From Paracoccus nototheniae (lineage in GTDB: Bacteria > Pseudomonadota > Alphaproteobacteria > Rhodobacterales > Rhodobacteraceae): DNA of 64,000 nt. The stretch spans positions 62,001 through 126,000 of the forward strand of contig NZ_RQRT01000003.1 of the NCBI RefSeq assembly GCF_004335005.1, given 5' to 3'. The first letter of the stretch is position 1; each line of letters starts with the position of its first letter. Under the pieces are notes generated by a model. That model worked only from the letters and a program-made list of their open reading frames with translations, had not been told where the DNA came from and ran no database searches. The translations under genes and the position numbers were made by a program. Of this stretch, positions 392-12,063 are shown piece after piece.

Positions 392-721
392 TTAAGCGGT
401 CAGCAGCCGCACTTTGACGGCAGCGGTGTCGGCCGGTGCCGCTTCGATCGTATAGCCCAGCAGGGTGTTGCCGCTGGCGGTCGTGGTGGCCAGGCTGTCG
501 GTCGCGTTCCAATAGACCTTGGCGCCGAGGGTGAAGGCGTTAGCGGCCACCTTGGGCAGTTCCCAGCAGCCGACGACAGACACGTCGACGGGGGCGCCAG
601 CTGCAGCGTCGATCAGGGCAATGCCGCGGATGTCACCTGCGATCACCACGCCGCCCGACAGGACGGAAGCGGGGGCGGGAATGGTCAGGTTGTCACCGGC
701 TTGAATGAAGTTGCGGGCCAT
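392..721 (-). CDS. DUF2190 family head protein (capsid decoration/spike)
   Basis: The 109-residue product has the DUF2190 pattern: MARNFIQAGDNLTI at the start, a Gly/Val-rich beta region (SGGVVIAGDIRGIAL), an EGVW-like segment (VVGCWELPKVAANAF), then GAKVYWNATDSLAT and LLGYTIEAAP. Members are small beta-rich virion proteins beside capsid genes, thought to decorate or cement the head. It starts three bases after the gpW-like gene stop and is the last gene before the terminator at 337-365, so it is the distal gene of this head operon. Confidence 0.8.
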   Translation of the reverse strand: MARNFIQAGDNLTIPAPASVLSGGVVIAGDIRGIALIDAAAGAPVDVSVVGCWELPKVAANAFTLGAKVYWNATDSLATTTASGNTLLGYTIEAAPADTAAVKVRLLTA

Positions 722-724
722 GGG

Positions 725-940
725 TTAGAGTCCTTTCGAGGTCTGGAAGCGGACGATCGAAAGACGCCGCCGTTGAAGATTTGCGATCTCTGCGTCGATG
801 GCCGCCAGGGCGCGGGCCATCTCCGAGTCGCTTTTGAATTCCACGCGATCGCCGTTGGCATCGTGCACCGCACGTTCACCGCTGAAGCGCGCTTCCTGCA
901 GCCGGTCCCGCCATTCGCTCAGCTGTGCGGCGCTGGCCAT
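725..940 (-). CDS. gpW-like head-tail joining protein
   Basis: A 71-residue protein, MASAAQLSEWRDRLQEAR and onward. A helix, a short beta hairpin (ERAVHDANGDRVEFKSD) and a second helix (ALAAIDAEIANLQ) match the fold and length of lambda gpW (68 residues), the plug that completes the DNA-filled head before tail attachment. Its ATG shares one base with the capsid stop codon (TGATG), so translation is probably coupled. The same frame is open upstream to 1129, but that part is an arginine-rich shadow of the capsid gene, so the coupled ATG is preferred. Confidence 0.75.
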   Translation of the reverse strand: MASAAQLSEWRDRLQEARFSGERAVHDANGDRVEFKSDSEMARALAAIDAEIANLQRRRLSIVRFQTSKGL

Positions 941-2682
941 CAGGCCGCCCCGGTCGAGCGATAGGCCCCGCGCCAGTCGAGCCAGCCGCAACCGAAGTCG
1001 AGGAAGGCGCGATACTTCAGGCCCAGCGTGTCCCAGGCTTCCTGTCGCTGGATCTGCACGCCCTGCGCGCTGGACAGATAGGCATATTGCAGCGACGGGA
1101 CGGCAGCCGGGTCGGCCATGACGAACCACGTGTTGCCGATCAGACGAGGTTCCACGACCAGTTCCAGCTTCCCAGCCATCGGGTTCACGTCATGCGTTGT
1201 CGCGGCGTAGATCGACGCAAGCGCCTTCTCTGCGTGTGCTTCTAGGTCTGCACCCACGACCAGATAGCGCGGCTTCACGCTAAGGATGGTCCGACCGTCC
1301 AGACCCGTAATCGTCCGCATGACGCGACGGGCTTCAAGCAGCGCCGCAACGGCAGCTTCCGGGTCCAGCATATCCGACCCGGGACCCGTGGCGATGTTGC
1401 CCCGGCTGACATGGAAAACGGGCAGGCCATCCGACATAATCGGATTGTCAGCCAGCAGCTTCACCAGCTCGTCGGCTTCGGTCTGCGCCGCCGCCGCGCC
1501 CATCGCGCTGGTCATGTCGCCCAGAAGGCCCAGATCGTCGTCGATCAGCAGCTTGCGCGACACGCTGATCGCCCGGCCGAAGGTCTTCAGGCTCATGGTC
1601 TCGCCCGCCTCGGCGCGGCTGGTATGGGTGAACTCGCCATGTTCCGTCATCTCTTCCAGACGGCCCATTTCACCGATACGGATGGCGGTCGTAGTCTTGA
1701 AGTTCGGCAGCGTCCGTTGGCGGGCCAGAGCCTTCAGCGGGCTTTCGGCCGCTTGATAAGCCTGCGCCGCGACCTTGCCCATGGCGTTCGAAACCAGCAG
1801 CGGGAAGTCGGACGCGCTCAGGCTCCGCGAAAAGACCTCATCAGCGGACATGCCGCGAGTGCTGACGCCCGAACGCTGAAGGGCATCGGCCGCCATCTCG
1901 CGTAGGGTCACGTTCACATATTCTCGGCTGGCTTCGGGCAGGGCTCCACCAGCCATCCGGAAGGCCAGCGCATCAGCGGCGCGGGTCTGAATCTCGGCAG
2001 GGTTGCCGTTTTCGCGGGTGACGCGGATCGGCGGTGCCGCACGCTGAGTCATGGCGTCGCGGGCAGCTCTGCGCACATCGTCGTCGGTGACGGCTTCAGC
2101 GCCCAGATCGGCGCCCCATTCGTCGGACAGATTGCAGGCGCCGCGCAGCGTGTCGATCAGCGCGTTTCGGGTTTCGATGTCAAAAGGCATGGTGTCACTC
2201 CGTCGGGTTGCATTGGGGTCAGCAGGGATTGCGACAAGCGACACTTCTTTGAGGTGCCAGCGGGTTGCAGTTTTCGTTCTTTGGCCGGTTTCATCTTTGC
2301 CCTCGGCCCATGCCTCGACCGAATAGCCGGCGCTGAAGGCGCGCAGCGTGCCGTCTTGGACGCGCTGGCGGATCGGCAGCAGGTCGTCTGCACCGCTGAA
2401 GCGCAGCCGGGCCAGTACTGTGTCGCCGTCGATGCGGACATCATGCACCCGGCCGATCGTCTCGCGTGCCGTGGGGCGGTGATCCGCCAGAAGCGGCCAG
2501 TCGTCTCCCGACAGCACCAGCCCGGCGGGGTCGAGGATCTCGATATAAAGTCCGCGAGCATCGCGCCGGGTGACTGGGTGGCGGGTTGCGATGACGGCTT
2601 CGATTTCGAGGGACTCAGGGCTGAAGCTGCCGGATGCCGGGGCTTCGCGCGTCAGCATGCCGCCATGGGCAAGAATGTTCAT
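940..2682 (-). CDS. prohead protease-major capsid fusion protein
   Basis: One 580-residue chain carries two head functions. Residues about 1-165 look like an HK97-type (U35) prohead protease: IEAVIATRHPVTR, a LLADHRP stretch, LRAFSAGYSVEAW with the likely nucleophile serine, and the family's WHLKEVSLVAIPADPNA ending. A linker follows from about residue 170. Residues about 250-580 resemble Mu gpT-like or HK97-fold major capsid proteins (NFKTTTAIRIGEMGRLEEM, FGRAISVSRKLLIDDDLG, PRYLVVGADLEAHAEKAL, DFGCGWLDWRGAYRS). Such fusions are known in elements with GpA-type terminases. The ATG overlaps the portal stop by four bases. Self-cleavage presumably releases the capsid domain; that is inferred. 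Confidence 0.85.
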   Translation of the reverse strand: MNILAHGGMLTREAPASGSFSPESLEIEAVIATRHPVTRRDARGLYIEILDPAGLVLSGDDWPLLADHRPTARETIGRVHDVRIDGDTVLARLRFSGADDLLPIRQRVQDGTLRAFSAGYSVEAWAEGKDETGQRTKTATRWHLKEVSLVAIPADPNATRRSDTMPFDIETRNALIDTLRGACNLSDEWGADLGAEAVTDDDVRRAARDAMTQRAAPPIRVTRENGNPAEIQTRAADALAFRMAGGALPEASREYVNVTLREMAADALQRSGVSTRGMSADEVFSRSLSASDFPLLVSNAMGKVAAQAYQAAESPLKALARQRTLPNFKTTTAIRIGEMGRLEEMTEHGEFTHTSRAEAGETMSLKTFGRAISVSRKLLIDDDLGLLGDMTSAMGAAAAQTEADELVKLLADNPIMSDGLPVFHVSRGNIATGPGSDMLDPEAAVAALLEARRVMRTITGLDGRTILSVKPRYLVVGADLEAHAEKALASIYAATTHDVNPMAGKLELVVEPRLIGNTWFVMADPAAVPSLQYAYLSSAQGVQIQRQEAWDTLGLKYRAFLDFGCGWLDWRGAYRSTGAA

Positions 2683-4028
2683 GCTTGGATTCCGTTTTGT
2701 TCTTTCGGCTTTTCGCCAAAGGTAAGACCCATCGCGGCTTCGCGCTGCCGATCGGCTGCAATTTCCGCATCGACCTTGGCCACGTCATAGCCGATCTGCG
2801 CGACCGCTTGCCGGCGGCTGATGAGGCCCATTGCCAGCATCTCTCGTGTTGCCTTGGCGTCCGACTCTGGGTCGACCCACTGAGGTTTCGGAAAGTGAAC
2901 CTCCAGCGGTGTGGCGGGATCGGCCCAGTCGCTACCGCGCAGACTTTCCAGAAGTTGCCAACGCTGCCAAATCGGCCCGTAAAAGGCGGGAACCAATAGG
3001 GCGTGCTGCATGGCTTCGATCCGGCTGCGAAACTGTATCAGCGCGGTACGCGCGCTGCTGTAGTTCACACCGCGCATATCGCCCGACAGCAGGAACTCGG
3101 GAATCTGCAAACCGGCTGCGATCTGCCGCAGCGACACGGCCACCAGTTCGACAGATTGCGCCATCTGCTGGGGCGTCGTGAACTTCACATCCCAGCCCGC
3201 CGGCAAGACGCGCATCGTGCCGGGTTCAAGCGACACGTCCATTGGGTTTTCGCCCTCGCCAAGCGGATTGGTCGCGGTGCCGTTCAGATCGACCAAGAAG
3301 CCGACGAGCATCGCCTGAATCTTGGCGGTCACCTGCAGAGCGTCCTGCAGTTGCGACAGTTCGTTAAGCGGCAGGATGACAGGCGCGAACCATGACAAGC
3401 CGCGGGTTTGCCCTGCGCCCTGTCGGCGGAAGATATGCAGCACGTCCACTGCCTCGACCCGTACGGGCGCCCGGAAGGTCTGATATTGGTCAGTCGGACG
3501 GGCAGGGCGGAAGTGATACGCGACAGGCAGATCGTCCGCGTTGTATTCGATGCCCGCGGCTATGTAGCGCCCGCCGCTCAGTTCGACGCTGTAAGCCTCG
3601 TCCAGCTGTTCAGCTGGGACATGCTGCAGGCGCAGGGCGCCGCTGTCGTCACTGCGCAGGATAATCAGCGCTTCGCCGTCCGTTGCCAGCGAGTCGATCA
3701 TCTCACCTTCCAGGGCGGGCAGGCGCGTCCGTGCAGCCCATTCGGCAAAGGCAGTGTCGATCTCTTCCGTGCCGCTGGTCAGTGTCGCGCCATAGCCCAC
3801 AAGGGCGGTGCGCAGGATCTCCGCAGCATTGGTGGCGGTAGGATCATTGAACCGCAGATGCCGGGCTCGGCCGCGCACTTGGGCCGCGCCTGCCAGAACT
3901 TCGCTACCCGTCGCACCAAAAGCCGGGGTCGAGGGCCAACGCTTACCGCTGGCGCCTTCCAGCATCCGAACCTGCGAAATAGATGGCGGATCTGCGCGGC
4001 GGCTCATAAGGCGCGACCAGATGCCCAT
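2679..4028 (-). CDS. lambda-family portal protein (GpB-like)
   Basis: The 449-residue product matches the lambda GpB portal family, the dodecameric ring at the unique capsid vertex through which DNA is pumped. Visible landmarks are an N-terminal RAR-HLRFNDPTATNAAEILRT region, the DGEALIIL strand, HIFRRQGAGQTRGLSWFAPV, the FLLSGDMRGVNYSSARTAL segment typical of this family, and a late FPKPQWVDPESDAKATREML stretch. The length is somewhat below lambda gpB (533). It starts three bases after the upstream MerR-like gene and overlaps the capsid fusion gene by four bases. Confidence 0.9.
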   Translation of the reverse strand: MGIWSRLMSRRADPPSISQVRMLEGASGKRWPSTPAFGATGSEVLAGAAQVRGRARHLRFNDPTATNAAEILRTALVGYGATLTSGTEEIDTAFAEWAARTRLPALEGEMIDSLATDGEALIILRSDDSGALRLQHVPAEQLDEAYSVELSGGRYIAAGIEYNADDLPVAYHFRPARPTDQYQTFRAPVRVEAVDVLHIFRRQGAGQTRGLSWFAPVILPLNELSQLQDALQVTAKIQAMLVGFLVDLNGTATNPLGEGENPMDVSLEPGTMRVLPAGWDVKFTTPQQMAQSVELVAVSLRQIAAGLQIPEFLLSGDMRGVNYSSARTALIQFRSRIEAMQHALLVPAFYGPIWQRWQLLESLRGSDWADPATPLEVHFPKPQWVDPESDAKATREMLAMGLISRRQAVAQIGYDVAKVDAEIAADRQREAAMGLTFGEKPKEQNGIQA

Positions 4029-4031
4029 GGG

Positions 4032-4562
4032 TCAGGCTTCCTGTCCGGCTAGGATTGAAAGCACCGGCCGCACCAACGTCGTCACAGGCAGAAGGACGGT
4101 CTGCGAGATGACGTTTGCGTGGTTCCAGTCGTCGAACCATTCAAATCGTTCGGTCAAGCCGACTTCCTCAAAACTGCCCATTTTCGCATCGGTGAATGCC
4201 CACGGGTGCGTGTAGATATCCAGCCGGATAAAGATCTGCACCCCGTCAGAAACACGTTGGACATTTTTTTCGTAGGCGAACGTTCCCTGCGTATTGCCGA
4301 TCGGACGCAGTTTCGAATTGATCGCAGAGACCTGCCCGGATGAGCCGCCGTCCAACGACAGGCTGATAGCTACGACGGCAGCTGCAATGTCCGCAGGTGA
4401 GTACGAGATCTCTTTTCCTTGAGAGGTTGCAGCGCTCGACAGGATTAAACCGCGATCTCGCATGGTTCGCGCCCGAGAATATAAGCGTGCGGGATCTTGA
4501 TTGCCGCGTGTTCTAGCAACTGCATCCGTAATCTGGCGTAAAGTGGCGGTCGGATAATCCAT
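4032..4562 (-). CDS. MerR-like putative regulator inside the head gene cluster
   Basis: A 176-residue protein starting MDYPTATLRQITDAVARTRG. I do not recognise a named family. Residues about 6-70 read like a winged helix of the MerR type: TLRQITDAVA, ARLYSRARTMRDRGLIL, then ISYSPADIAAAVVAISLSL. The C-terminal 100 residues are beta-rich (QIFIRLDIYTHPW, FEWFDDWNHANVISQTVLLP) and could be a ligand or oligomer domain. The start is chosen by a GGAG ribosome site; the frame is open to 4643 but that extension would run through the repeat cluster at 4597-4644. It sits where lambda has gpW, between large terminase and portal, so a structural role is the alternative. Confidence 0.5.
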   Translation of the reverse strand: MDYPTATLRQITDAVARTRGNQDPARLYSRARTMRDRGLILSSAATSQGKEISYSPADIAAAVVAISLSLDGGSSGQVSAINSKLRPIGNTQGTFAYEKNVQRVSDGVQIFIRLDIYTHPWAFTDAKMGSFEEVGLTERFEWFDDWNHANVISQTVLLPVTTLVRPVLSILAGQEA

Positions 4563-4596
4563 TGAAGGGCTCCATTCTCTTTGCACCGTTATGCAT

Positions 4597-5360: not shown

Positions 5361-5386
5361 TATTATTCAATTTATAGGAGATGCTC

Positions 5387-5644
5387 ATGAAAATTTCATT
5401 CGAATTGAGTGGGACTGTCATTTTCGCAACGGAAATGGATTTTATTCCACCCATCGGCTACAAAGCCACATTTCGGACGATCACTTATAAAAAAGGGCTT
5501 TACGCTGGGTCTCTGATATCAGTTGACGTTGGCTCTATTGATTCGCCGAGCCTAGAATTTGAGGGCGATAAGCTTGTGGAAGTAATAATATCCGCGAATG
5601 GATATGAACTTCATGAGAAAGGCCCAAAGCCTCCCGAAGATTAA
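5387..5644 (+). CDS. small hypothetical protein, AT-richer than neighbours
   Basis: An 85-residue product beginning MKISFELSGTVIFATEM. An ATG at 5381 touches the AGGAG site, so the in-frame ATG at 5387, six bases after AGGAG, is the better start. The protein is predominantly beta: alternating FELSGTVIF, YKATFRTITY, SLISVDVGSI, LVEVIISANGYEL. Codon use is visibly AT-richer (ATA, AAA, TTT) than the packaging genes around it, a sign of separate origin. Its stop overlaps the end of the large terminase gene by four bases on the opposite strand. No family recognised. Confidence 0.6.
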   Translation: MKISFELSGTVIFATEMDFIPPIGYKATFRTITYKKGLYAGSLISVDVGSIDSPSLEFEGDKLVEVIISANGYELHEKGPKPPED

Positions 5645-7392
5645 CCCCCCAACCACTTGGACCTGATTACGCGCGGCGGTGCCTTCGGTGCTGCCGCGCT
5701 TGCCAATTCAGCCGCCCGCAGATCCACACGCTGCCCGATCAGCTGACGCACGGCAAGGGCGTAGACAGAGGCGTCTAGCGTCTCGGCACGTTTGCCCTTG
5801 ATCCGTTCAAAGCGCGCTTCCGGTTTCCCCCTCACATACCGCACCACGCGCCGCTCACTGGCCAGCTGTTCGAAATAGATAGGCGCTAGGTCATCCGAGA
5901 AGCGCACACCCTGATTCCGACTGACCCGCGCAAAGAGCTGCGACTTGGCCGCATCGGAGCCCACAAGCCATAGGTGCTGATTGCCAGACTTGGCCAGCAG
6001 TGCACGGCTGAAGCCTGCGACCCCCTTGATGGGCACAACGCGACGGCCGAACCGGGGCTTACAGAAAGCCATCACGCTCTCCAAATGCCCGCCATCACCA
6101 GAGTCCACCGCGCAGGCATCGATGCGGATCGTGCCGCCGTTCGGGTGCGGCCACGTCTCACGCAGCAGCGAGTCCAGATCCTGCCAGACCGCTTCACCGT
6201 CAATCGGCCCAAAGATGCAGCGGTGATCGAGCATGAGCCAATCGTTTTCAGTGTGGCCCATCAAGACGATCTCGATCCGATCATCTTGGCAGTCGACGCC
6301 CGCCGTGATCCACAGCACCTCCGGCGGCAGGCGGTCCAACCCAAAGGCTTCGCGGCGGTTGAACAGCTCGTGCTCGTCCAGATCCTCGCCTTCGGTTTTC
6401 CACGGTTGGCCCAGGATGGTGTTGACGAACGGCTGCAGAGTCTCCGGACTGCGCTTGGCCTGCAGGAACTCGGCGGCTAGCTTGCCCCAGCGGGCATTGT
6501 GGTGCGGGCTGATCAGGCAGTTAATCCGGAAGCCCGCATGCCCTTTCACGTGGGGCGTCGTTGCCCGCCAGCGCCCGGACGCCACCATGGCGGGCTTGTG
6601 CCGTTCCTCGATTACGCAGCCGCAACCGGGGCAGGTCCATGCCGCCTTATCCGGTTCGCCATCAGGCCAGCTGATCTGAGCCCATTCGATCTCATGGAAG
6701 CCGCCGCACTCCGGGCAAAGCACCTCATAGATCCGCTGGTCGGACTCACCGTACATGCGGGTGATTGGGCCGAAGTCGAAAATTGGAGTTGAGCCCGCCA
6801 GGATCTTCCGGTCACGAAACGTCTGGGTCCGCATTTCGGCCAGCTTGATCGGATCGCCTTCCTGCGTCGACTCGTAGCCGTCGATCTCGTCCATGGCCAA
6901 GAATCGTGTCGTGTGCCTGCGCAGGTTGCGCGGGCTTTTCGCGGCCAGAAACTTCAGACTGCCGCCGGCAAAGCGACGCGCTAGCATCGTGCTGCGCCCG
7001 GCCTCGTCCGCATCATCCGACAGCAGCCCACGCAGGGCAGGCGATGCCTCGAACATGGACTCAAGCTCGACTGAATAGTCCCGTGCATCATCGGCCGTCG
7101 GCTGCAGTGCGATGATTGGTGCAGGCGAATTGGCCACGAAGCTGGCTATCGTTGCTGACAGCCATTGCGTGTATCCAATCCGCGCGCCTTTCATGATCGT
7201 CAGACGTTCGATTTCCGGATCTTCGATCGCATCGCACCATCCGCGCTGAAACGGCCAAAGGTCCATGCGTCCAGGAAGGGCCGAGGCGCTGGCAGGAATC
7301 CTGATGGTCGACTCGATCCATCTCGCCAGTGGGACATTGGGTGGCGGGCGTAGCGCCTGAAGCGCATTTTTGCGGACGATCTCAATCCCCAT
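5641..7392 (-). CDS. terminase large subunit, GpA family
   Basis: The 583-residue protein is the ATP-driven packaging motor and nuclease of the lambda GpA family. Visible parts: LWPFQRGWCDAIED near residue 45, the ATP-binding MKGARIGYTQ at 67-76 that replaces a classic Walker A in this family, Walker B FLAMDEID at 164-171, a zinc ribbon with CPEC at 226-229 and CPGC at 254-257, then the nuclease start VLWITAGVDCQDDRIEI. It overlaps the small terminase gene by 11 bases, as expected for a packaging operon. Lambda-type terminases cut at cos sites; the cos of this element is not identified. Confidence 0.92.
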   Translation of the reverse strand: MGIEIVRKNALQALRPPPNVPLARWIESTIRIPASASALPGRMDLWPFQRGWCDAIEDPEIERLTIMKGARIGYTQWLSATIASFVANSPAPIIALQPTADDARDYSVELESMFEASPALRGLLSDDADEAGRSTMLARRFAGGSLKFLAAKSPRNLRRHTTRFLAMDEIDGYESTQEGDPIKLAEMRTQTFRDRKILAGSTPIFDFGPITRMYGESDQRIYEVLCPECGGFHEIEWAQISWPDGEPDKAAWTCPGCGCVIEERHKPAMVASGRWRATTPHVKGHAGFRINCLISPHHNARWGKLAAEFLQAKRSPETLQPFVNTILGQPWKTEGEDLDEHELFNRREAFGLDRLPPEVLWITAGVDCQDDRIEIVLMGHTENDWLMLDHRCIFGPIDGEAVWQDLDSLLRETWPHPNGGTIRIDACAVDSGDGGHLESVMAFCKPRFGRRVVPIKGVAGFSRALLAKSGNQHLWLVGSDAAKSQLFARVSRNQGVRFSDDLAPIYFEQLASERRVVRYVRGKPEARFERIKGKRAETLDASVYALAVRQLIGQRVDLRAAELASAAAPKAPPRVIRSKWLGG

Positions 7393-7972
7393 CTGCGAGG
7401 CCCTCCAGCGCCTTTTTGATCTCGCGATCTAGCGTGGCGATGTCGGTTGCAGTCAGGTGCGGAAGAGCGGCGCCGCAGCGGGACGGAACCGCTAGAAGCG
7501 CATTGCGGACGTCGCGCATCAGGTTCGACCATTCTCGGCTGACGGCTGCGACCTCGACCAGGTCACCTGACTCGCGCTTCACGCGGGTTTCTTCCTTATC
7601 CGCCTGTGCACGGGTCAGTCGTAACTTCTCGGCCCTCAGATCGTCGCCGCCATCCGGTGGGCGCCCAGCGCGCGCCGCGTGTTCCTGCAGCCGCGCGATA
7701 TATGCCGCGGTCGATCTGCGGACATCCCAGCGGGCCCGGCCCGCCTTCACAAGCACGCCGTCGACCGTTTTCGTCCTGACCTGCGAGGTGGCCAAGTTGA
7801 GGAAGGCGGCGATCTCAGGTTGCGTCATGGCGCCGGGAATGGCGTTTCTGCTTTCTGTGCTGTTCGCTGGCAGGGCTTCCGGCCCTTCGATAGGTGCGAG
7901 GTGCGAGGCAGGGCTGTCGAGGCTCAGAAGGTCATCTAGCGAGTACGGGTCAGGCGATGGCGTAGGATGCAT
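7382..7972 (-). CDS. terminase small subunit, Nu1-like, with DPYSLDDLL tail motif
   Basis: A 196-residue protein. Residues about 47-75 (MTQPEIAAFLNLATSQVRTK) form a helix-turn-helix like lambda Nu1, followed by a WDVRRSTAAYIARLQEH segment and the DKEETRVKRESGDLVEV and IATLDREIKKALEGL region common to small terminase subunits. It would recognise the packaging site and recruit the large subunit. Unusually it has a 45-residue N-terminal extension with DPYSLDDLL at residues 8-16, a motif shared with the integrase and the primase-helicase. The start has GAAGGG upstream. Confidence 0.8.
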   Translation of the reverse strand: MHPTPSPDPYSLDDLLSLDSPASHLAPIEGPEALPANSTESRNAIPGAMTQPEIAAFLNLATSQVRTKTVDGVLVKAGRARWDVRRSTAAYIARLQEHAARAGRPPDGGDDLRAEKLRLTRAQADKEETRVKRESGDLVEVAAVSREWSNLMRDVRNALLAVPSRCGAALPHLTATDIATLDREIKKALEGLADGD

Positions 7973-8116
7973 TTACTCGGCCCTTCATGTCTGAAAAATT
8001 CTGCAAACCGTCTTTCTTCGCGGTCAGCGTCCCCCGCGGCAGGCCGGCAGGGGGAAGGACCCATCGGGACGCATAGCCTGCGCGGTCGCCCGGCTGCGAT
8101 GCGACAGGATCAATCT

Positions 8117-8339
8117 GTGACCCCTGTGACCCCTGTGACCCCAATTTGCCTATATTATGGATTCGACCCCTGCTGCTGGTGCCCAGTAGGCTGTGGGCTG
8201 CCACTGGCTGCTTATAGGTCTTCTTTAGATATTCAGGGGTCACAGGGGTCACACTATAGCTAAGACACTGTATAGAATTGGATAATAAGTGACCCCTCAC
8301 ACCGCTAGAGGGGGTCACCAAGGGGTCACGGGGGGTCAC
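8117..8339. repeat. nine GTGACCCC iterons, candidate replication origin
   Basis: Nine copies of GTGACCCC or its complement lie in the 363-base gap between the primase-helicase and small terminase genes. Three are direct with a 9-base period (8117, 8126, 8135), two inverted with a 9-base period (8236, 8245), one direct (8289) and three inverted (8311, 8322, 8332). Between the clusters are AT-rich stretches, 8143-8160 and 8251-8290. The last copy overlaps the helicase stop codon. Satellite origins of the P4 and SaPI types have this build: iterons bound by the adjacent primase-helicase around an AT-rich melting zone. Confidence 0.7.
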
Positions 8340-10471
8340 AGTTCGATCCTGTTGCATTGACGCACCCAGACCTTGCCATTGCGGCTGTGCTGCCTGATCC
8401 AGCCCCGATGCTTCAGGATGCGGGATATCCGTTGCAGATCGGCCTGCTTCTGCCGCTCTATGGGAACACCGATGCGGATAAGCAGGTCGCGCGCAGTGAT
8501 CTTGTCCACCGGCTCGTCAAAGCCGTCCTGCCCATCGTCGCCGTCCAGATGGTCAGCAATGGCGCTTTCCCACGGGTCTTCCTCTCGCACCGACTCCTGT
8601 TCGGCCCATGCAAGACGTTCGGTCTCAGATGATAGGTGCCACCGCTCGCCAGCGGTGAACGCTGCCACTGCCTCGGCGAACAGCTGGTCGCGATCTCGGG
8701 CAAGTCCGATGGTGTCCAGCATGTCGCCGCATGTGACCGGCCAGAAGCGCCGGCCCCCGGTCATGTCGCGTAGGAATGCAGCCTCGTTCGTTGTGCCGAT
8801 AAACACCGTCTGGCGCGGCACGATGTCTGCGCGGCGCGCGTAGGGTGCACGGATCTCATCGTCGCCCCGGGTCAGGAAGGATTTCAGGTCTTCCGCCTCG
8901 GCCTTTCTCGATGGGGCAAGCTCGGCCAGCTCCACGAGCCAATGTCCGCGGAGATATAGACCCGCCTCTTTCGCGCCCTCTCTGATCGACGGCATGTTGT
9001 CGCCAGTCCATTCGCCACCCACGATGCGGCAAGCCGTGCTCTTCCCGATGCCTTGGGGCCCAGCAAGCACAAGCACGTGGTCATGCTTGCAGCCGGGACG
9101 CATGACGCGGGCCACCATAGCGATCAGGAAGGCGCGGCCGACGGCGCGAACGTAGGGGGAGTCCGCCACGCCCAGATAGCGCGTCAGCCAGGTGTCCAAT
9201 CGCATCTCACCATCATGGGCGAGCACGGCAAGCCAATCCTTGATCGGGTGAAACTGGTTCATCTGCGCGACTGCCCGCACGGCTTCTGCCGTCATGCCCC
9301 CGACGTTGTGCATCCCCGCTTGTTCGATCGCTACGCGGAACAAGGTCAGGTCAGACTCTTGGATCAGCCCGCCTTGCCACTCATCCCGCCCAGTCATGGC
9401 GTTGTGCCGAAGTCCGAAGCCTTTGGCGGCGTTCACCTGCTGGAGGTAGCAGATGGCATTATGCATCGTCGCCTTGGGCGCGCCAAATCCGGTAACCTGG
9501 ATTGTCTTATCCTCGATGCCGTGACCGATCGCTGGCAGATCGTCAAAGTCGCTGGCATCAACTGCAAAAGGCAGGGCGATCGGCTTGGCCAGGCCATCTG
9601 ACCAGCCATGTGCGAAGGTGCTGCGCGCCTCGCGATCAGACAGGCCACAAGTCAGCCCGGCCGCCACAAGCAGTTCCTCGGCCTGATCGCGCGTCAGGGC
9701 ACCGTGAGCGCCGACACCACCCGCCCACATGCTGGCGTTGTTCAAAGCGCTTTGACGCGTACCTTCACCTGCGTCGGCCACCCTGGCAGCGTGCGCGTCC
9801 AGCTCGCCTCGGGCCCATTCCATGTGCGATGGCGAGGCCTCCCGCACCTCTACGGCCCCACGGTCTGGTTTAGCGGGCGGGGTGAGCGCCTGGGGCCACT
9901 CGGGCAGCACAGTGTCCCGGGTCAGGTCCAGCCCATGAACGACGTACCGCTTGCCGTCCTTTAGGCTGTCGGGGGCAATGACAAACCCGCCATTGTTCCG
10001 GACATCCAGCCCAGGGCCGATCTGGCCAACCGTCGCCTTCAGTCCCGGCTTATACTTGAGAAAGACATGCCAGCCGCCGCTGGGGGAACCGCTTCGGACG
10101 GGGCTCATGACGTGGATGTCCGGAAAGCCCAGCTGATTCAGGCTCGCCAAGCCGTCCTTTCCGTTCTTCACGTCGACATCCAGGACGCTAATGCCGTTCC
10201 GTTCGCCCGTGATAAGCGCGACCCGGGATTCCGGCCATTGGCGCCACCAACTGCGGATAGTGGTCGCGTCAGCCGTCGCGCGTGTCGGGAACGCGGCTAT
10301 CGGCTTCCAGCCGTCGCCGTCGCCCCAGTCGCGGACAGGACATACAGCAAGCCCCCGCGATGCGAGGGATAGGGCAACATCCAGATTTGTTCGGAGGGGT
10401 GGAGTGATCGCAAGCAGATCGTCGAGATTATAAGGGTCTTGAACGGACCCCGATTGGAGAGTATCTTTCAT
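8336..10471 (-). CDS. primase-polymerase / VapE-type helicase replication protein
   Basis: A 711-residue replication protein. Residues about 25-220 form a primase-polymerase domain with metal ligands in SVLDVDVKNGKDG (about 95-107), the GGWHVF motif (133-138) and LDVRNNGGFVIAPDS. The C-terminal half is VapE-like superfamily 3 helicase: Walker A GPQGIGKST at 471-479, HWLVELAELAPSRKAE, FLTRGDDEIRAPYARR, then VFIGTTNEAAFLRDMTGGRRFWPV, and a terminal winged-helix region. The ATG at 10471 has AGAGG upstream; the frame is open further but lacks a site. Residues 12-20 are DPYNLDDLL, shared with two other proteins of the element. It should initiate replication at the adjacent iterons. Confidence 0.88.
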   Translation of the reverse strand: MKDTLQSGSVQDPYNLDDLLAITPPLRTNLDVALSLASRGLAVCPVRDWGDGDGWKPIAAFPTRATADATTIRSWWRQWPESRVALITGERNGISVLDVDVKNGKDGLASLNQLGFPDIHVMSPVRSGSPSGGWHVFLKYKPGLKATVGQIGPGLDVRNNGGFVIAPDSLKDGKRYVVHGLDLTRDTVLPEWPQALTPPAKPDRGAVEVREASPSHMEWARGELDAHAARVADAGEGTRQSALNNASMWAGGVGAHGALTRDQAEELLVAAGLTCGLSDREARSTFAHGWSDGLAKPIALPFAVDASDFDDLPAIGHGIEDKTIQVTGFGAPKATMHNAICYLQQVNAAKGFGLRHNAMTGRDEWQGGLIQESDLTLFRVAIEQAGMHNVGGMTAEAVRAVAQMNQFHPIKDWLAVLAHDGEMRLDTWLTRYLGVADSPYVRAVGRAFLIAMVARVMRPGCKHDHVLVLAGPQGIGKSTACRIVGGEWTGDNMPSIREGAKEAGLYLRGHWLVELAELAPSRKAEAEDLKSFLTRGDDEIRAPYARRADIVPRQTVFIGTTNEAAFLRDMTGGRRFWPVTCGDMLDTIGLARDRDQLFAEAVAAFTAGERWHLSSETERLAWAEQESVREEDPWESAIADHLDGDDGQDGFDEPVDKITARDLLIRIGVPIERQKQADLQRISRILKHRGWIRQHSRNGKVWVRQCNRIEL

Positions 10472-10544
10472 TTGAACCTCTTGAAGCCGTCGGGTGTGCC
10501 GCCCGGCGGCTTCTTCTATTTCCAGATCATTCCAGAAATGAAGA

Positions 10545-10574
10545 AGCCGCATCAACCAGTATGGCGATGCGGCT
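10545..10574 (-). terminator. hairpin downstream of the integrase gene
   Basis: AGCCGCATC and GATGCGGCT form a 9-bp stem with a 12-base loop. On the minus strand TCTTCATTTC follows, a weak T-rich tail. It lies 44 bases beyond the integrase stop and upstream of the primase-helicase start, so it could separate the two transcripts. Confidence 0.5.
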
Positions 10575-10617
10575 AAGTTATTGCAAGATAAGATGAATTT
10601 CACTTAAACTGTGAAAC

Positions 10618-11823
10618 TCAGCGCAGAAGTTCGTCCAAGTTATACGGGTCGTCGACCTTCAAAGCCTTGTCGAGAAAATCATTGAACCACGCCACCATGC
10701 GCACCCGCTCCGGCCAATACTCTGCATGGTTATAGCTGGCCCTGACGCCATTGCCCGGGACGTGGGCCAGCTGCCGTTCGATCGCGTCCCCTGACCACAG
10801 CCCGGACTCGTTTAGAACCGTCGATGCGAGAGACCGCATGCCGTGCACGGTGACGCGGCTGCGGTAGCCCATCCGGTAAAGAGCAAAGATATAGGTGTTC
10901 TGACTCTGGGGTTTGCCGCGCAGGCCCGGCACGATCCATGGGCTGCCGCCCGCGTGCTGCTTCAGTTCCTTTAGAATGGCTTGGGCTTGCGGGGGCAGGG
11001 GGATCATATGGTCGCGGGCCATCTTCATACGATCGCCGGGGATCCGCCAGACGTCGCCGCTGATCTCGTCCCAAGTGCCGAACCGCAATTCGTTCGTCCG
11101 CGTCATGGTGCGCATGATCAGTTCAAGCCCAAGGCGCGTCTGAGGTTCGCCGTCATAGGCCCGCAGCTTGGCCATGAACTCGCCCAGTTCGTTCTGCTTT
11201 ATCGCGGCCATGTGCTTGACTCGAGGCGACGGCTTCAGGGCGCCGGTCAGGTCCGCGGCGGGATCGCGATCGGCGCGGCCGGTGGCAATGGCATAGCGCA
11301 TCACCGCGCCAACAGACTGCCGCACGCGCTTGGCCACGTCGACTGCCCCGCGGTCTTCGATGGTCCGCAGCATCTTTAGGATCTTCTGGGCCGACAGCTC
11401 GCGGATCGGCTCATCGCCGAACGCCGGGTATACGTCACCCTTGAAGCGAGAAATAACGCGCAGCGCATGGGCGGGTGTCCATGCCGCTTCCTGTGCCTTC
11501 AGCCATTCGTCGGCCACCGTCCGGAAGGTGACGCCGGGGCCCTCTGTGGCCGGTGCCTCTAGCGCGGCTTTGTTGGCGCTGGGATCCAGCCCGCCGGCCA
11601 GAACTTCCCGTGCACGCTCTCGCATCGCCCGCGCCTGGGCAAGCCTGACAGCTGGGAAGACGCCCAATGCGAGTGTCTTCTGTTTCCCGCCAAATCGATA
11701 GCTCCAGCGCCAATATTTTGAGCCGTTGGGCTGAACCAGCAAGAAGAGTCCGCCCCCGTCCGACAGCTTGCGCGGCTTCGACTCGGCCTTCGCCGCGCGG
11801 CAGGCGACATCTGTAAGGGCCAT
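10618..11823 (-). CDS. int: tyrosine integrase, P4 type
   Basis: The 401-residue protein has the N-terminal arm-binding DUF4102-like domain (KLSDGGGLFLLV, YRFGGKQKTLALGVFP), a central SAM-like core-binding region and a C-terminal catalytic domain. Catalytic residues appear as Arg242 (MTRTNELR), Lys267, His327 and Arg330 (VHGMR), His354 (QLAHV) and Tyr364 (ASYNHAEYW). P4-type integrases use tRNA 3' ends; this gene starts 164 bases from the tRNA-Ile 3' end. GGGAGA precedes the ATG. The last ten residues, DPYNLDELLR, extend beyond the normal catalytic domain and repeat a motif of the primase-helicase and small terminase. Confidence 0.93.
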   Translation of the reverse strand: MALTDVACRAAKAESKPRKLSDGGGLFLLVQPNGSKYWRWSYRFGGKQKTLALGVFPAVRLAQARAMRERAREVLAGGLDPSANKAALEAPATEGPGVTFRTVADEWLKAQEAAWTPAHALRVISRFKGDVYPAFGDEPIRELSAQKILKMLRTIEDRGAVDVAKRVRQSVGAVMRYAIATGRADRDPAADLTGALKPSPRVKHMAAIKQNELGEFMAKLRAYDGEPQTRLGLELIMRTMTRTNELRFGTWDEISGDVWRIPGDRMKMARDHMIPLPPQAQAILKELKQHAGGSPWIVPGLRGKPQSQNTYIFALYRMGYRSRVTVHGMRSLASTVLNESGLWSGDAIERQLAHVPGNGVRASYNHAEYWPERVRMVAWFNDFLDKALKVDDPYNLDELLR

Positions 11824-11986
11824 CAGAATCTCCCGTTGGTATCTGGAGATTTCACTTTGATGGTATCTGCGTTGGTATCAAGCTGGATGATTGAGGACGC
11901 ATGAGGACCAAGAAAAGCGGCTAGCATTGAAATTGCTGCGTTTTCCGTGTTCATGAGGACGTATGGGGATGCATGAAAAGGGGGGT
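11824..11986. promoter_or_regulatory. attachment-site arm region with two repeat families
   Basis: Between the integrase start and the tRNA lie two sets of short direct repeats: TGGTATC at 11837, 11861 and 11873, and TGAGGAC at 11892, 11902 and 11954. Arm-type integrase or excisionase sites are the likely meaning. The crossover core should be within the tRNA 3' end (from 11987); the second copy was not found in the window, so it lies to the left of base 1. Confidence 0.55.
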
Positions 11987-12063
11987 TGGTAGGCCCGGCA
12001 GGACTTGAACCCGCAACCAAGGCGTTATGAGCGCCCTGCTCTGACCAGTTGAGCTACAGGCCC
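11987..12063 (-). tRNA. tRNA-Ile(CAU), AUA-decoding, integration site
   Basis: A complete cloverleaf can be drawn on the minus strand, 77 bases with an encoded CCA. The acceptor is GGGCCTG with CGGGCCT, the anticodon loop CTCATAA gives CAU, and the T arm is GCGGG-TTCAAGT-CCTGC. The CGCCTTGGTTGC variable region resembles the tRNA-Ile2 class, whose C34 is changed to lysidine, more than elongator tRNA-Met. The gene's 3' end faces the integrase, so the element inserted into and rebuilt it. Confidence 0.88.

Follow-up and report, generated by a model that had tools for sequence, protein, structure and literature searches.

A putative element-specific docking tag on integration, replication and packaging proteins of Rhodobacterales satellites and Casjensviridae phages

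Why do an integrase, a replication protein and a small terminase, encoded by one genetic element of Paracoccus nototheniae and unrelated to each other, carry nearly the same nonapeptide? The question arises from a window of 64,000 nucleotides (contig NZ_RQRT01000003.1, positions 62,001 to 126,000), in which an initial annotation had placed three copies of DPY(N/S)LD(D/E)LL. Each copy was found at the position given for it, on the minus strand (Table 1). The list itself was correct but incomplete, as a related motif, SDFDDLPA, had been overlooked in the replication protein; since it is common to homologous replication proteins, it is not an independent occurrence.

Table 1. Features of the element and copies of the peptide, in coordinates of the window
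Feature	Position	Strand	Basis or remark
Capsid cement/decoration protein	392..721	-	Pfam, PHROGs
Small protein between capsid and cement genes, gpW-like (inferred from position and sequence)	725..1129	-	conserved in relatives
Fused prohead protease and major capsid protein	940..2682	-	Pfam, PHROGs
Portal, lambda family; no tag here	2679..4028	-	Pfam, PHROGs
HTH-like protein of ~180 aa, ahead of portal gene	4032..4565	-	fold inferred from sequence only
Large terminase TerL, lambda GpA family; no tag	5641..7392	-	Pfam, PHROGs
Small terminase TerS, Nu1-like (phrog_57)	7382..7972	-	Pfam, PHROGs
Tag copy 3, DPYSLDDLL	7925..7951	-	residues 8-16 of TerS, N-terminal
Prim-Pol/VapE primase-helicase	8336..10471	-	Pfam, PHROGs
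Related motif SDFDDLPA	9530..9553	-	linker between Prim-Pol and VapE domains; profile score 14.0
Tag copy 2, DPYNLDDLL	10412..10438	-	residues 12-20 of Prim-Pol/VapE replication protein, if the start is the ATG at 10471
Tyrosine integrase (arm-binding, Phage_int_M, Phage_integrase)	10618..11823	-	Pfam
Tag copy 1, DPYNLDELL, then R and stop	10624..10650	-	integrase C-terminus
Right copy of 20-bp att repeat, GGGGTTGGTAGGCCCGGCAG	11982..12001		3' end of tRNA-Met
tRNA-Met	11987-12063		

The element is about 12.2 kb long and lies between 20-bp att repeats in a tRNA-Met gene, the left repeat being located 228 bp ahead of the start of the window (contig position C169:61773). Searches with Pfam and PHROGs found no tail gene in ten element genes, the other small open reading frames of the 12.2-kb interval being inspected by eye only. 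Because it has its own capsid and packaging genes and no tail gene was found, the element looks like a tail-less, capsid-encoding satellite. An SSB was not recognisable among the searched satellite genes (Pfam, PHROGs), and the host assembly gave no match to an Enc34-type SSB or to a resident prophage carrying one, although the control of this search gave no signal either. No helper phage was found in the host assembly, where the sole lambda-family portal is that of the element itself. The HTH-like proteins that precede the portal gene in satellites (window 4032-4565) are strongly divergent and apparently swapped; such a protein was considered as a partner of the peptide and rejected because its families do not follow the wording of the tag. 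At window positions 5381-5644 a plus-strand frame of 87 residues runs against the other genes of the element, and its counterpart in locus L019 is 47% identical.

A degenerate codon search of the 4.6-Mb assembly for DPY(N/S)LD(D/E)LL gave three matches, all in this element and none outside it, and host-wide use of the motif was rejected for this reason. As an IUPAC pattern in IMG/VR the exact motif matched the same element alone. In the family, 394 other genomes gave nine scattered single matches to a looser pattern, most of them in unrelated frames and never more than one per genome, and a reversed control pattern gave several times as many matches in the same 394 genomes. The copies had been described as lying outside the known domains and as conserved at the level of the peptide, and both statements hold. 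The Pfam domains of the integrase extend to residue 368, that of Prim-Pol begins with residue 33 and the Nu1 match of TerS covers residues 113-190; every copy lies beyond these boundaries. AlphaFold2 models, with five sequences behind each, predict a four-residue helix at the motif of TerS, within a tail of low confidence (pLDDT below 50 for residues 1-8 and 15-43), and a short C-terminal helix at the motif of the integrase. At shared residues the three pairs of copies use the same codon in 3/8, 4/7 and 1/8 cases, and this low codon identity does not indicate recent copying of DNA. The peptide recurs in relatives and co-varies between unrelated proteins of one element, as described below.

Searches based on TerS yielded 79 genome loci and 45 viral loci, among which 26 were of the satellite type; some of these form near-identical pairs, so that independent elements are fewer than the count. 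An N-terminal peptide [FLIVM]x[DE][LI][LIMV] precedes the DNA-binding domain in 24 of the 26 satellite TerS proteins, with those of L023 and L109 falling outside the strict pattern. The TerS proteins of the remaining loci, lambda-type Nu1 included, have no N-terminal extension of this kind. What had been taken for one conserved nonapeptide is thus indeed a conserved peptide, but its family core is [FLI]x[DE]L[LIM], usually followed by G, and DPY belongs to the version of this element. A profile built from 19 TerS peptides alone was then applied to other genes. In the satellite genes upstream of TerS, which encode the integrase and the replication protein, it found 38 sites in 25,854 residues, where shuffled sequences gave 0.5 on average, and the upstream genes of non-satellite loci contained none in 63,289 residues. 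The structural genes downstream of TerS contained one site in 40,496 residues. All six satellite integrases of the upstream intA type end in a tag (TDLSDLLS, FDDIL and HSLDDLLSQ are examples), and no tag was found at the end of non-satellite intA homologues or of integrases of the 3'-located intB type. Several satellite replication proteins have more than one copy, although the linker copy DFDDLP is common to homologues and therefore not independent. The initial annotation had accepted that absence of the motif from homologues, or its random occurrence in unrelated integrases, would disprove the proposal; the comparison was made and left the proposal standing. In locus L148 (487-3750) the TerL frame apparently contains an intein at the ATP-binding loop, with GPARTGK before it and HN/T after it.

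The wording of the tag differs from one element to another, with DPYxLDDLL in the window, TDLSDLL in L101, FGDL[MV] in L105, YDFSDLL in L106 and DLDELLGG in L036. Within elements, however, the wordings of TerS and of the replication protein match each other (permutation p of about 5e-5 for 17 elements and 1e-4 for 13), where p values ignore kinship, which inflates their significance, and the motif registers were set by hand. In nine phages TerS and portal match in the same way (p 5e-5), and in phages the match between portal and integrase has a p of 0.017 and that between TerS and integrase a p of 0.08. The types of TerL, portal and capsid were compared by eye with the tag wording as possible correlates and did not match it.

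These phages extend the distribution of the tag. It had been claimed for the integrase, VapE and TerS, where it is indeed present, but it is confined neither to these proteins nor to satellites, and in the tailed Casjensviridae it is also found on portal, methyltransferase, Cas4-like nuclease, helicase, PAPS reductase and small early proteins. RcSalem has tags on its integrase, TerS, portal, methylase and Cas4-like nuclease and in the Prim-Pol linker, and DSS3-P1 on TerS, portal and methylase; for both phages the tags were taken from annotated or homology-placed genes. PspYZU01 carries them on portal, TerS, Cas4-like nuclease, helicase and small proteins. In RHph_X2_30, where the wording is DFxDILG, they occur on TerS, portal, methyltransferase, PAPS reductase and five small proteins. 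Integrase tags are absent in DSS3-P1 and RHph_X2_30, and in further RcSalem-related loci TerS, portal and partly the integrase match in wording. Exact patterns DDFDDLLG and TDLSDLLG gave mostly chance matches, yet they led to a 50-kb tailed phage in IMG/VR that is tagged on its integrase, an unrelated TerS (DUF1441), portal, a methyltransferase-like protein and a small protein. Wordings of satellites also occur in phages: TDLSDLL is common to RcSalem and L101, and DFSDLLG to the 50-kb phage and L106. The protease and capsid systems of satellites and Casjensviridae differ. An automated scan detected no terminal tag in lambda, RcTitan or phiLM21, with crude gene calls that undercounted RcSalem and DSS3-P1. 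Lambda has an annotated 22-residue portal leader (L168, 2836-2901) that contains PTLLGPDG and resembles the N-termini of tagged Casjensviridae portals (DLLGPDTG, HLLGPLDG). In RcTitan (L167, 25647-26873) the DNA polymerase processivity factor ends in DPDDEIPF, like a bacterial SSB tail.

Chi and Enc34 lack the LLG-type tag and their portals are untagged. In Chi, however, [DE][DE]V forms the end of 7 of 53 proteins, where 0.06 would be expected, including the SSB, the primase, a Cas4-like protein, TerS and NinC, and Enc34 has the same tail on its SSB, primase, Cas4-like protein and TerS. This shared tail, -DDEV, is the tail of their own SSB. In both phages the shared acidic -EV tail also stands at the end of the small gene that follows the major capsid gene (L169, 18207-18500 in Chi; L185, 17801-18085 in Enc34). 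In the crystal, the tail of the Enc34 SSB occupies the DNA-binding groove of a neighbouring molecule (PMC5686142). The SSB tails of RcSalem (which ends in SLLDF) and RHph_X2_30 show a loose resemblance to the tag, so that the link to SSB rests mainly on Chi and Enc34, whose DDEV tails are possibly a different system from the LLG-type tag.

In view of the recurrence in relatives, the co-variation and the disordered-looking termini, the most economical reading is that the tags are a shared docking peptide, and we consider this very probable. The initial annotation had already suggested docking to one partner; of the partners that it named, a host clamp is unlikely since the motif is without the clamp Gln. 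Against the explanation set out next stand the untagged portal of the satellite, the untagged integrases of DSS3-P1 and RHph_X2_30 and the lack of a match to an Enc34-type SSB in the host assembly, where the control search was silent as well. The complete explanation, an element-specific docking tag with a putative hub, falls a little short of probable and is proposed tentatively. It starts from an acidic-hydrophobic motif that is carried on the flexible ends of DNA-handling proteins in Rhodobacterales satellites and Casjensviridae phages. Each set of tags would bind one hub, by which integration, replication and packaging proteins would be recruited to the same DNA. The shared SSB-type tails of Chi and Enc34, together with the Enc34 crystal, led us to propose that the hub could be centred on SSB, as part of the replication complex of a Casjensviridae-type phage. 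Candidate binding sites are the DNA-binding groove of an Enc34-type SSB or the receptor proteins for the SSB tail. A satellite without a recognisable SSB would borrow the hub from its helper phage, and it may copy the tag wording of that phage. That the hub is such an SSB-centred complex, supplied to satellites by the helper, appears possible but doubtful. We are similarly cautious about the general form of the proposal, which may apply to Casjensviridae and satellites alike and in which an element-specific peptide code on unrelated proteins would bring integration, DNA modification, replication and packaging together at one hub, with satellites copying the code of the helper.

Other functions could be considered for such a peptide. 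It could be a cargo signal that loads proteins into the procapsid, like the capsid-targeting sequences on internal proteins of some phages, so that integrase, replication and modification enzymes would arrive together with the DNA. The tagged portal N-termini of Casjensviridae, the similar leader of the lambda portal and the usefulness of many tagged enzymes just after entry would agree with this, but TerS, which is tagged most consistently, is not expected inside a capsid. Moreover, portals are untagged in the satellite and in Chi and Enc34, and a common loading signal fits poorly with the different protease and capsid systems of satellites and Casjensviridae, which makes cargo loading unlikely. 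The position of copies at extreme termini, on proteins that would be harmful if active in a lysogen, is what one would expect of a degron or adaptor site that makes DNA-acting proteins jointly short-lived through a host protease (ClpXP, Lon or an adaptor). We regard this as improbable, because copies also occur in internal linkers and because elements whose hosts are related differ in their wording, a difference for which a shared host protease would have no need.

Two further explanations invoke DNA or the host replication machinery. Binding to the host sliding clamp, or to another conserved host replication protein, would make the tag a case of a known docking motif on DNA enzymes, and its core does end in LL or LM. 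However, the Gln of the clamp motif is present at the required place in none of the 19 aligned TerS tags, the portal is tagged and the wording is element-specific, so that we find a clamp or similar host target quite improbable. The acidic ends might instead be intramolecular DNA mimics that restrain non-specific DNA binding, their similarity being convergent in composition. Most tagged proteins with a known function do work on DNA, and phage SSBs have acidic tails that are in competition with DNA (PMC5686142). Yet composition does not predict that the same wording changes in step across unrelated proteins of one element, and we give this explanation little credence. An origin by chance, or from one DNA segment copied recently between the genes, has the short length of the motif in its favour and nothing else. 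It is contradicted by the profile results against shuffles and non-satellite loci, by the confinement of the three matches in 4.6 Mb to one element and by the low codon identity, and is hardly credible.

If the tags bind one hub, integration, replication and packaging would be physically linked across a large set of phages and satellites. Such a link would account for the way in which packaging proteins reach the right DNA and would provide a sequence code for predicting which satellite pairs with which helper. Tagged phages are already cultivated (RcSalem on Rhodobacter capsulatus, PspYZU01 on Pseudomonas), so that the idea can be put to experiment at present.

Among known systems, the element itself most resembles the capsid-forming PICIs (cfPICIs), which likewise have an integrase, a replication protein, their own terminase, portal and capsid genes, and no tail genes. 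The att repeats at tRNA-Met, the own capsid and packaging genes and the lack of tail genes among those searched agree with that description. The present element differs in its Rhodobacterales host, its lambda GpA/Nu1 packaging and its fused protease-capsid protein. To our knowledge a shared tag is not part of the description of cfPICIs.

The tag itself can be compared with the C-terminal tails of SSBs (E. coli SSB, T7 gp2.5, Enc34 ORF6, T4 gp32), which are also short, acidic-hydrophobic, disordered ends that gather DNA-processing proteins. In those systems the SSB bears the tail and its partners bear pockets, whereas here many clients bear the tail, often N-terminally or in a linker and with an element-specific wording. 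An SSB tail lies at the extreme C-terminus and has a final hydrophobic residue, whereas TerS and the replication protein carry their copies at the N-terminus and the copy on the integrase ends in Arg. A tail common to the SSB of the same element is found in Chi and Enc34 but not among the searched genes of the satellite. The binding motif for sliding clamps is another case in which one short motif on many unrelated DNA enzymes serves one hub. The tag differs from it by the absence of Gln, by its presence on the portal and by its variation between elements, and none of the 19 aligned TerS tags fits the consensus Q-x-x-[LM]-x-F or QL[SD]LF. The chemistry of the tag is nearly identical to that of an amphipathic LDDLLG peptide from an unrelated eukaryotic protein, MAML1, whose LDDLLGS sequence, an acidic LxxLL peptide, is bound by papillomavirus E6 (PMC5760104), but this is an analogy only. 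No published description of the tag was found in the literature searched, the scope of which leaves out most subscription journals. Hub-docking motifs are a known kind, to which an element-specific code that is carried by many clients and common to satellites and phages would be a new addition.
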